Of a stretch of 33,954 nucleotides of DNA, positions 29,471 through 33,256 are shown one piece after another. Origin of the DNA: Candidatus Stahliibacteriota bacterium (GTDB lineage: Bacteria; Hydrothermota; UBA3073; JACQXS01); NCBI GenBank assembly GCA_016208615.1, contig JACQXS010000061.1, forward strand, positions 1-33,954, read 5' to 3'. Below the pieces are notes generated by a model. That model was not told the origin of the DNA and searched no databases. It worked only from the letters and a program-made list of their open reading frames with translations. The position numbers and the translations under genes were made by a program. Position 1 is the stretch's first letter; each line of letters begins with the position of its first letter.

Positions 29471-29515
29471 GTCTTCTATCATTTTGCATTTTGATATGTC
29501 ATTTTGATATTTACT

Positions 29516-30589
29516 ATGGAAAGGTTATTTCTTGTAGGCATATTAACTAAATATGATGAGCGGTGGGAAAAGATGGATTCCCTAAATGAACTTGCCTCAC
29601 TGGGTAAGACTGCCGGGGGTGAAATAGTAGAGCGTATATTACAGCGCAGAGATAGGATAGAGCCGCGTTTTTTTATAGGCAAGGGCAAGGCAGAGGAACT
29701 TGCGACCATAGCAGATGAGATTAAGATAGACACTTTTGTGTTTGACGAAGAATTGAGCGGTACTCAATTAAGGAATCTTGAAAATATAACAAAAAGAAAA
29801 GTAATCGACCGCACTGAACTTATACTTGATATATTTGCCCAAAATGCCCATAGCGAGGCGGCAAAAGTAGAAGTAGAGCTAACACAATTAGGATATGTAT
29901 TATCACGGCTTACGGGTAAAGGGATTGCAATGTCTCGACTTGGCGGTGGTATTGGGACAAAAGGGCCAGGAGAGATGAAACTTGAAATTGATAGAAGAAG
30001 AATTAGGGAACGCATAAAAGTATTGAAAAAAAGACTTGGCATTATTGAGGTGAGCAAAAGAATCCAATCCGCAAGAAGACAGAATTTGTTTAGAGTAGCC
30101 TTAGTAGGGTACACGAATGCGGGAAAATCAACAAGAATGAACCGGCTTACACGCTCTAATTTGTTAGTAGAGAATAAACTATTTTCTACATTAGATGCGA
30201 CAACCCGTATTATGTCATTAGATAATAGACATTCTAAACTTCTTATTACTGATACAGTTGGTTTTTTGCGAAAATTGCCCCACGGACTTATCACTTCTTT
30301 CAAATCTACCTTGCAAGAAGCAATAGAAGCGGATATCAGATTACATATAGTTGATATATCGCATCCTCATTGTGAATTACAACTATTAGTAGGGAATCAA
30401 ATTTTAGATGAACTGGGCGTAATAGGGCGGCCAATGATTTATGTTTTCAATAAAGTTGATCTTAATCCTGATATTATTCCAATGTTCCAGCAAAAATACC
30501 CAGATGCTATATTTATTTCGGCTTTACGAAAAGAAGATACGGAATTACTCAAGCAAAGAATCTGCTCTTTCTTTAAAAGTAGCAATTAA
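29516..30589 (+). CDS. hflX: GTPase HflX
   Basis: About 357 residues. The N-terminal glycine-rich domain has LNELASLGKTAGGEIVERI, FFIGKGKAEELA and the basic HflX stretch GGGIGTKGPGEMKLEIDRRRI. The G domain follows: G1 GYTNAGKST at about 198, G3 DTVGF at about 245 and G4 NKVD at about 312. HflX splits stalled ribosomes. The residue after the P-loop is Arg-Met-Asn instead of the usual Leu-Met-Asn, a minor variation. ATG at 29516 is preferred over an upstream TTG (29504). No clear ribosome site; TGATAT lies 5 nt before the ATG, so the transcript may be leaderless. Confidence 0.94.
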   Translation: MERLFLVGILTKYDERWEKMDSLNELASLGKTAGGEIVERILQRRDRIEPRFFIGKGKAEELATIADEIKIDTFVFDEELSGTQLRNLENITKRKVIDRTELILDIFAQNAHSEAAKVEVELTQLGYVLSRLTGKGIAMSRLGGGIGTKGPGEMKLEIDRRRIRERIKVLKKRLGIIEVSKRIQSARRQNLFRVALVGYTNAGKSTRMNRLTRSNLLVENKLFSTLDATTRIMSLDNRHSKLLITDTVGFLRKLPHGLITSFKSTLQEAIEADIRLHIVDISHPHCELQLLVGNQILDELGVIGRPMIYVFNKVDLNPDIIPMFQQKYPDAIFISALRKEDTELLKQRICSFFKSSN

Positions 30590-30797
30590 CATCTTGAAAT
30601 TTTAATTCTTTTATGGCTATTCTTCTTTCCCGCCAAGTCGGGATTTCCGCTTCGCTACAACAAGAAATTTAGTTGTCCAAATACCCTGCCACAAAATCAC
30701 TCCCGCCCCCGCCAAAACGGGATTTGTCAACAAGTCGGGATTTTCAACAAAACACTAAAATACATAAAAAGCAGAAATTATAGAGATGCTGAAACGA

Positions 30798-30860
30798 GTT
30801 CAGTATGACAATTTACAAGTTTAGCATAATAATTTACAAGTTCAGCATGACAATTTGCGG
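30798..30860. repeat. 21-bp tandem repeat, three copies
   Basis: Three adjacent 21-bp units start at 30798, 30819 and 30840, each of the form GTT(C/T)AG(T/C)AT.A.AATTT(A/G)C. The third is followed by the selC promoter. Units differ at a few positions, so the array is not very recent. Confidence 0.75.
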
Positions 30861-30896
30861 TGATTACACTTTTTCAGCAGTCTCGTTAAGTTTTTA

Positions 30897-30924
30897 TTGA
30901 CAAGATAAATGAAAGTGATAAAAT
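30897..30924 (+). promoter_or_regulatory. selC promoter
   Basis: TTGACA (30897-30902), 16-nt spacer and TAAAAT (30919-30924) lie directly upstream of the tRNA; transcription would start about 4 nt before its first base. This is a near-consensus promoter dedicated to selC. Confidence 0.75.
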
Positions 30925-30934
30925 ATTTTTATCT

Positions 30935-31029
30935 GGAGGTGGATAGGGGCTGGTGTCTCTACTGGACTTCAAATCCAGCTTTCCTGCCAAAAGTGGGAAG
31001 GTAGGTTCGATTCCTACACACCTCCGCCA
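30935..31029 (+). tRNA. selC: tRNA-Sec (selenocysteine, anticodon TCA)
   Basis: 95 nt with encoded CCA, the same length as E. coli selC. The anticodon arm CTGGA-CTTCAAA-TCCAG is identical to the E. coli one and carries TCA, which reads UGA. The D-arm AGGGGC-TGGT-GTCTCT has the Sec-specific 6-bp stem with a 4-nt loop. The variable arm CTTTCC..GGGAAG is a 6-bp stem. The T-arm is GTAGG-TTCGATT-CCTAC, and the acceptor stem is GGAGGTG with CACCTCC, then discriminator G and CCA. The eighth acceptor pair is G-A instead of a Watson-Crick pair. Its presence shows that the organism decodes UGA as selenocysteine; selA, selB and selD are not in the window. Confidence 0.95.
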
Positions 31030-31053: not shown

Positions 31054-32172
31054 ATGAAAAGTAAAGAGATAACCACAAGAAATTATACTAACCTGTTTGA
31101 TAGGGTAGCAGAAATTTTAGCCGAAGCAAAAACTAATGTAATAAGAGAAATAAATAAAGCTCAAGTACTGGCATACTGGGAGATTGGGAAAGAAATTGTT
31201 GAGTTTGAACAGAAAGGTAAAGTGAGGGCAGAATATGGGGGCGAACTAATTAAAAAACTTTCAAATGATTTAACTAAAAAATTTGGCAGAGGTTTTTCTG
31301 AGATAAATATTAGAAATATGAGACGGTTATATTTGGAATTTCCAACTCAGATTCAACAGACACCGTCTGTTAAATCTCAGAAATCGCAGACACTGTCTGC
31401 GGAATCTAAGAGGAAGCAAAAAACCAAGTCATTATCTTGGAAATCTGAAATAAGTCAGACACTGTCTGCCAAATTTGAACCTATGTTATTCTGGTCCCAC
31501 TATTGTGAGTTATTAAAAGCAGAAGAACCACTTGCTCGCTCCTTTTACGAACAGGAAGCAATCCAAAATAACTGGTCTGTAAGAGAATTAAAACGGCAAA
31601 TTAACTCTATGCTTTTTGAACGGCTGGTATTAAGCAAAAATACCAAAGCAGTCATGAAAATGGCAGAGAAAGGACAGGTTATAGAAAAACCAGAAGATGC
31701 AATCAAAGACCCTTATATTTTGGAATTTTTAAACCTTAAAGAAGAAATATCTTATACTGAAAGTCAATTAGAACAGGCGCTAATTGATAAACTCCAATAT
31801 TTCTTATTAGAACTTGGTCAGGGCTTTACTTTTGTTGCCCGTCAAAAAAGAATTACTATTGCTAATCGTCATTATCATATTGATTTAGTTTTCTACAATC
31901 GTCTATTGAAGTGTTTCGTTTTAATTGATTTAAAAACTGGTGAACTTGACCACGCAGATATTGGACAAATGAATTTTTATATCAATTACTTCAAGGAAAA
32001 TGAAAAACAAGAAAATGAAAATGACCCTATAGGACTTATTCTATGTGCAAAAAAAGATGATATATTTGCCAAGTATGTTTTAGGCGGATTAGATAACAAA
32101 GTATTTGCTTCAAAGTATAAATTAACATTACCTTCGGAGAAAGAATTGAGACTTAAACTAAAATCAATCTAA
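31054..32172 (+). CDS. YhcG/DUF1016 family PD-(D/E)XK nuclease
   Basis: 372 residues. The N-terminal DUF1016_N helical part has AYWEIGKEIVEFEQKGKVRAEYGGELI and GRGFSEINIRNMRRLYLEF. A variable hydrophilic linker (about 95-145) contains repeated SQTLSA blocks, then MLFWSHYCELLKAEEPLARSFYEQEA. The C-terminal nuclease has HYHIDLVFYNRLLKCFVLIDLKTGELDHADIGQMNFYINYF, with the catalytic D...D-L-K pattern. Such proteins are found near mobile and restriction elements. AAAGG lies upstream of the ATG, which is 24 nt after selC. It directly precedes a 5'-truncated RNase HIII gene, so it may mark an insertion. Confidence 0.88.
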   Translation: MKSKEITTRNYTNLFDRVAEILAEAKTNVIREINKAQVLAYWEIGKEIVEFEQKGKVRAEYGGELIKKLSNDLTKKFGRGFSEINIRNMRRLYLEFPTQIQQTPSVKSQKSQTLSAESKRKQKTKSLSWKSEISQTLSAKFEPMLFWSHYCELLKAEEPLARSFYEQEAIQNNWSVRELKRQINSMLFERLVLSKNTKAVMKMAEKGQVIEKPEDAIKDPYILEFLNLKEEISYTESQLEQALIDKLQYFLLELGQGFTFVARQKRITIANRHYHIDLVFYNRLLKCFVLIDLKTGELDHADIGQMNFYINYFKENEKQENENDPIGLILCAKKDDIFAKYVLGGLDNKVFASKYKLTLPSEKELRLKLKSI

Positions 32173-32188: not shown

Positions 32189-33256
32189 TTGTCCGACTCT
32201 CGCGTTAAATCATTAAGCGAAGATATACAAAAATTATGTCCTTGTGATATAGTTGTCATCAGTCCTCCCAAGTATAATGAGCTTTATTCTAAATTGCATA
32301 ACCTAAATCGTCTACTTGCTTGGGGACACGCACGAGTAATTGAAAATCTGCTTAGCGGTGTGAGTCAGGGGACCCACACCTACCCGGGAATAAATAGTTG
32401 TGATACTGTTATAGCGGATAAGTTTGGTGATAAGAAATATATTGAAAAAGCTTTGATGTCAAAGGGCAAACAAATAACTCTTATTCAGCGTCCCAAAGCC
32501 GAATACGATATTGCAGTTGCCGCTGCTTCTATAATTGCCAGAAATGGGTTTATTGAGGAAATAGCGGCCCTTTCTACACAAATAGGAGTGCAATTACCTA
32601 AGGGTGCAGGCCCACAAGTAGAAGAGATGGCACAATCTTTGATAGAAAAACACGGCAATGAGATACTTAATAAAATAGCCAAACTTCATTTCAAGACAAC
32701 TAATAAACTTACTGTCATCACACCAAGAACCGACGCCCGACCCGTTCCGACACGAAACGGGTTAGGAGAACCGAGAGCCAATAATAGATTATGGGCACCT
32801 TGGAGAGCAGAATATATTTATTCTTCCAAGTCTGATGTCTGTATATTCTGTGAAGCCATAGCAAAAAAAGATGCATTTATATTATCTCGTGGTGCCAAAG
32901 GATTTGTAATTATGAATACTTTTCCATACAATAATGGGCATCTGATGGTTGCTCCGTACAGGCATATTGCTAATGTTGAGGACCTTACAGGAGAAGAGAT
33001 ATTGTTACTATTTGACCTTGTGCAAAAATCAGTTAGAGTATTAAAAGCAAAAATGCGACCCGATGGCTTCAATATAGGGATAAATCTTGGCAAAGTGGCA
33101 GGTGCAGGAGTTGAGGGGCATATTCATATACACATAGTGCCACGCTGGAATGGGGATACTAATTTTATGCCCATCACAGCGGAGACAAAAGTAATTTCCC
33201 AATCCCTTGAAGAAGCATATAAATTACTAAAAGAAGGGTTTGGGGAAATTCCATAA
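32189..33256 (+). CDS. 5'-truncated RNase HIII fused in frame to a HIT-family hydrolase
   Basis: 355 residues from a TTG. Residues 1-165 match RNase HIII from just after its first catalytic strand: SDSRVKSLSEDIQKLCPCDIVVISPPKYNELY, NLNRLLAWGHARVIENLL, IADKFGDKKYIEKALM, RPKAEYDIAVAAASIIAR and KLHFKTTNKL. The N-terminal domain and the DEAGKGD-type strand with the first two catalytic acids are missing, so RNase H activity is unlikely. After a linker (PRTDARPVPTRNGLGEPRAN) follows a HIT domain: RLWAPWRAEYI, CIFCEAI and GHIHIHIVPRW, the nucleotide-hydrolase H-x-H-x-H. The linker is encoded by a GC-rich palindrome (32740-32762), suggesting that two once separate genes were joined. No internal ATG or GTG suits a free HIT protein. 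Confidence 0.8.
   Translation: MSDSRVKSLSEDIQKLCPCDIVVISPPKYNELYSKLHNLNRLLAWGHARVIENLLSGVSQGTHTYPGINSCDTVIADKFGDKKYIEKALMSKGKQITLIQRPKAEYDIAVAAASIIARNGFIEEIAALSTQIGVQLPKGAGPQVEEMAQSLIEKHGNEILNKIAKLHFKTTNKLTVITPRTDARPVPTRNGLGEPRANNRLWAPWRAEYIYSSKSDVCIFCEAIAKKDAFILSRGAKGFVIMNTFPYNNGHLMVAPYRHIANVEDLTGEEILLLFDLVQKSVRVLKAKMRPDGFNIGINLGKVAGAGVEGHIHIHIVPRWNGDTNFMPITAETKVISQSLEEAYKLLKEGFGEIP
32740..32762. repeat. Short palindrome at the RNase HIII/HIT junction
   Basis: ACCCGTT (32740-32746) and AACGGGT (32756-32762) are perfect 7-bp arms around a 9-nt loop, GC-rich in an AT-rich gene. It encodes part of the linker between the two domains. Confidence 0.6.

Follow-up and report, generated by a model that had tools for sequence, protein, structure and literature searches.

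A stretch of 33,954 nucleotides from a Candidatus Stahlbacteria (WOR-3) bacterium, here termed the window, was described in a first-pass annotation as carrying a complete selC gene, encoding the selenocysteine tRNA (tRNA-Sec), in which the eighth acceptor position is not paired. This raises the question of whether the gene serves a selenocysteine (Sec) pathway, and whether the mismatch sets its product apart from the tRNA-Sec of other bacteria.

The locus at positions 30935-31029 (forward strand) is a genuine and complete tRNA-Sec gene. It was the sole tRNA called in the window by ARAGORN, as tRNA-SeC(tca), with the TCA anticodon at 30969-30971 (forward strand; tRNA position 35), and the Rfam model RF01852 matched positions 30935-31025 over its full length (model positions 1-91) with a score of 73.5 bits (E = 1.9e-13), relative to a gathering threshold of 47. 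The minimum-free-energy fold produced the same cloverleaf with acceptor layer 8 open (-39.8 kcal/mol, z = -3.2). These analyses agreed on the features by which RF01852 members are recognized, namely the UCA anticodon, a 6-bp D-stem with a 4-nt loop (UGGU), a long variable arm (7 pairs), and G73 followed by a CCA encoded in the gene; the stem of the D-arm contains two G·U pairs, and the T-stem comprises 5 bp (GUAGG/CCUAC). The 17-nt anticodon stem-loop, CTGGACTTCAAATCCAG, was identical to that of the annotated E. coli tRNA-Sec, as had been claimed from the sequence alone. A search of the genome's contigs (2.12 Mb, assembly 83% complete) with RF01852 revealed no other tRNA-Sec, the next-best matches being ordinary Leu, Ser and other tRNAs. 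A 50-bit match on contig C37 was identified as a tRNA-Leu and, in another genome (G036), a 51.6-bit match was identified as a tRNA-Ser.

This single selC very probably belongs to a standard bacterial Sec pathway. The gene would be transcribed from its own sigma-70-type promoter, and the tRNA would be charged with serine by SerRS, converted by SelA to Sec-tRNA using selenophosphate from SelD, and brought by SelB to UGA codons with downstream hairpins in selD, both fdhA genes and hdrA. The promoter proposed in the first-pass annotation was recovered as a promoter-like TTGACA-16-TAAAAT sequence at 30897-30924 (forward strand), recognized by consensus match (11 of 12 positions, with a TG before the -10 element) and ending 10 nt 5' of G1 of selC. 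It was the best among four sites found, relative to 1.4 expected, and consensus or near-consensus promoter-like sites are located at an equal distance 5' of selC in several relatives (e.g. G068, G070 and G012).

Rather than a low covariance score in a genome devoid of selA, selB and selD, the strong RF01852 match was accompanied by an intact selB (627 aa; contig C23:1949-3832; TIGR00475, 353.8 bits joined), a selD and an interrupted selA. The selD gene on contig C111 (TIGR00476, 374.8 bits) contains one in-frame TGA, which is positioned in the catalytic loop (KAAGUASK). Two genes encoding formate dehydrogenase alpha have a UGA at the canonical site, one on contig C87 (ARLUHSSTVAALAESFGRGVMTNHW), whose product has a twin-arginine-like signal, and one on contig C73 (ARLUHSPTVAGLAKAFGSGAMTN). 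Together with hdrA, discussed below, these are the genes in which an in-frame UGA was found at an established Sec position; as they were sought via the families PF00384, PF02662 and HdrA and in surrounding stretches, the list of selenoproteins is a minimum. When the SECIS regions of selD and both fdhA genes were folded singly, none showed an excess over shuffled sequences (z = -1.4, -0.1 and -1.0, respectively), and the folds were hence not used as evidence.

The first-pass annotation had taken selC as proof of Sec decoding in an organism where this capacity would otherwise be overlooked. A tRNA alone is no such proof, and selA is interrupted, though the combination of selB, the UGA-containing selD, fdhA and hdrA supports, from gene content, the assignment of this organism to a Sec-decoding lineage. 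In a search of 40 relatives, tRNA-Sec was always accompanied by selA, and only G016 had selA without a listed tRNA-Sec. With tRNA-Sec present in over a third of the phylum genomes surveyed, the capacity is hardly hidden, although a literature search, which did not cover all papers, found nothing joining Stahlbacteria with selenocysteine. On genomic grounds, Candidatus Stahlbacteria would join the lineages for which selenocysteine decoding is well supported. Counting against the standard-pathway reading are the interrupted selA, the assembly completeness, the location of selC apart from selA-selB, and the lack of significance of the SECIS folds.

The interrupted selA, a gene required for this pathway, is located directly upstream of selB on contig C23 (L022:3881-5087) with both halves present, approximately 79 codons (239 nt) being missing after ...GELIEIGG and the reading frame shifting before GTIIDLRPFGLPYEP. 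It is possible, albeit unlikely, that selA was truly deleted in this strain, in which case the tRNA, selB, selD and the UGA-containing genes would be relics of a Sec trait in early decay. Such a loss would be consistent with the position of both the deletion and the frameshift in a part of the contig that contains no runs of N, with the complete selA in all three same-family relatives, and with the result of a search for a second selA copy in the genome, in which none was found and the only other selA-like match scored 26.6 bits; however, the reading frames of selB, selD, hdrA and both fdhA genes are otherwise uninterrupted and have retained UGA at catalytic sites. The damage is also not confined to selA. 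A gene for a fumarate reductase/succinate dehydrogenase-type flavoprotein, likewise on contig C23 (L097:1494-3079), is split in two frames with an internal gap resembling that in selA (FAD_binding_2 positions 1-78, then 133-413), which suggests a general assembly fault. Along with an RNase H-type gene at the right end of the window that is without its N-terminal half, this gap makes assembly faults plausible in this metagenome-type genome.

We then considered the acceptor stem, which was as first described: seven pairs (GGAGGUG/CACCUCC) are followed by a G at 30942 that faces an A at 31018 (both forward strand). Descriptions of bacterial tRNA-Sec commonly list an eighth acceptor pair among its hallmarks, and the mismatch had been regarded as a departure from the normal eight pairs, with a comparison within the phylum suggested as a means of establishing whether it was lineage-specific. 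RF01852 was searched against 147 genomes of Candidatus Stahlbacteria/WOR-3, with matches in 56, and 55 complete tRNA-Sec from 54 of these genomes were obtained with ARAGORN following the exclusion of one tRNA-Ser and one gene cut by a contig edge. Acceptor layers 1-7 were standard in 54-55 of the 55 tRNAs, whilst layer 8 was standard in 16 (G-C in nine, U-A in six and C-G in one) and unpaired in 39 (G·A in 38 and A·A in one). As the first seven pairs are kept and the eighth is standard in so few, layer 8 varies freely without loss of the gene.

Non-pairs at this position were also widespread outside the phylum. Named genomes were scanned for selC of the GGAGGYG acceptor class with a pattern that left both sides of position 8 unconstrained, which retrieved at least 112 usable tRNAs. 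Among the 112 named matches listed, a sample rich in Actinomycetota and covering this one acceptor class, layer 8 was unpaired in 96 (U·C 50, A·C 18, G·A 8, A·A 7, C·A 7, G·G 5 and A·G 1) and paired in 16 (A-U 8, C-G 4, U-A 2 and G-C 2); since the 3' strand of acceptor layers 1-7 is prescribed by the pattern, these counts are silent on other classes and the pairing of layers 1-7 is partly built in. According to their records, the listed tRNAs with an unpaired layer 8 originated from the Actinomycetota, Pseudomonadota, Acidobacteriota, Bacillota, Verrucomicrobiota, Desulfobacterota and other taxa. The G·A at layer 8 is therefore common, and neither a lineage-specific trait nor an oddity. By this survey a Watson-Crick eighth pair, which the window selC lacks, is not a defining trait, and for a large class of bacterial tRNA-Sec the length of the acceptor is kept whilst pairing of its eighth layer is not required.

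The number of residues in the acceptor establishes how this layer is to be read. Eight residues, A-CACCUCC, are still present between the T-stem and G73, which gives a 13-layer acceptor/T stack of 8+5 geometry, and layer 8 is thus a non-Watson-Crick layer that is tolerated at the usual stacking length. That the G·A instead signifies a true 7/5 (12-bp) tRNA-Sec like that of Cloacimonetes, or some other structural variant with different SelA/SelB recognition, is very unlikely. Such 7/5 types have been described, and share with the window selC seven canonical acceptor pairs and five T-stem pairs, but have seven residues between the T-stem and G73 (PMC5330540), whereas the window selC keeps eight residues on each acceptor strand, as in E. 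coli, and a non-paired layer 8 occurs in many lineages beside paired relatives. Still less credible is a look-alike that does not carry Sec, since the allo-tRNAs and selC*-type tRNA-Cys that exist in bacteria (PMC7609411) have U73, a GCA or altered anticodon and an 8/4 or 9/3 acceptor domain, in contrast to the G73, UCA anticodon, 6-bp D-stem, 5-bp T-stem without an A51a bulge and full-length RF01852 match of a tRNA whose genome also contains selB, selD and UGA-containing genes.

The tRNA is hence best described as a member of the E. coli-type 8+5 class (RF01852), with which it shares the anticodon and its arm, the dimensions of the D-arm, the long variable arm, the spacing between T-stem and G73 and the encoded CCA, and from which it differs in the G·A (rather than C-G) at layer 8 and the two G·U pairs of the D-stem. 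The tRNA-Sec of other Candidatus Stahlbacteria (e.g. CSMAG_2384, L163/G082) have a corresponding acceptor (GGNGGYGG), the same T-stem and the same G·A. The tRNA-Sec itself holds little that is new; what is worth keeping is the dispensability of pairing at layer 8 in bacterial tRNA-Sec and a probable double-Sec HdrA.

The HdrA of this genome, encoded on contig C38 (L237:2969-5476), has a UxxU motif specified by two UGA codons 9 nt apart, which are followed by two tandem hairpins. The same arrangement was identified at nine further loci (L239-L243 and L259-L262), and among the 30 genomes read in detail the motif was UxxU in 10 (including that of the window), CxxU in 19 and CxxC in one. The CxxC gene, from G055, is without UGA, and tRNA-Sec was not found in the survey of that genome. 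The UxxU proteins share the sequence TMDUAIUILGPRMM or close variants of it, and form a single clade in a tree inferred with the two motif residues masked, which suggests that UxxU arose once in this sample.

Hairpin 1, located after the second UGA in all UxxU genes, is a 7-bp stem (columns 13-19 with 23-29) in which all 70 pair cells are paired and one C-G pair has changed to G-C in a compensatory manner; hairpin 2 was 95.7% paired, with a mostly GGUC-type loop. In the 18 distinct CxxU sequences, hairpin 2 was perfect whilst hairpin 1 was broken, with 70.6% of cells paired and one pair never formed. Hairpin 1 of the UxxU genes owes part of its pairing to an AAG-to-AGG change (Lys to Arg), and, as one evolutionary event separates the two groups, the contrast between them amounts to one observation and not ten. 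Read most simply, the pattern would mean that each UGA of hdrA has its own SECIS. It is somewhat favoured that the tRNA serves a Stahlbacteria HdrA with two Sec residues in UxxU, the closely spaced UGAs apparently having one hairpin each, and Stahlbacteria probably do have a double-Sec HdrA. HdrA has been given as CxxU, with one Sec only, in a 2026 review (PMC13188914). The reviewed protein is alike in having UGA at the second position of the motif and a downstream hairpin with a GGUC loop, but UxxU and the extra hairpin set the HdrA of the window's genome and of nine further genomes in the phylum apart from it; literature searches for an HdrA with two Sec residues returned nothing. The UxxU genes with their tandem hairpins would offer a natural test case for the way in which SelB matches SECIS elements to UGA codons that lie close together. 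HdrA genes with an in-frame UGA were also present in G066, G076, G077, G080, G086 and G113, for which no tRNA-Sec was listed, probably due to incomplete assemblies or strict filters.

With regard to its genomic setting, the window selC is solitary, located between a gene for an HflX-type GTPase (29504-30589, forward strand; PF13167, PF16360 and PF01926) and one for a YhcG/DUF1016 PDDEXK nuclease (31054-32172, forward strand; PF17761 and PF06250). A tie between the DUF1016 gene and Sec or selenium was considered, and nothing found supports one. In the same-family relatives G132, G133 and G134 (L090, L091 and L092), by contrast, selB overlaps selC by 12 nt, its TAG stop falling inside selC (GGA GGN GGA TAG, stop at +9 from G1). 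Overlaps of like kind between selB and selC have been reported in Gammaproteobacteria and Nitrospirae (PMC8124441). Within this family, then, either the detachment of selC or the selB-selC overlap arose.

A scan of the window for in-frame UGA codons yielded no credible selenoprotein, the only candidates being extensions at the start side of hflX and of a deaminase-type gene. Short near-repeats (tcagtatgacaatttacaagtttagcataa...) are present at 30790-30870, upstream of the promoter-like site of selC. At 32189-33256, a single open frame encodes a HIT domain joined to an RNase H-type C-terminal part, for which PF01351 is matched at positions 96-199 only.
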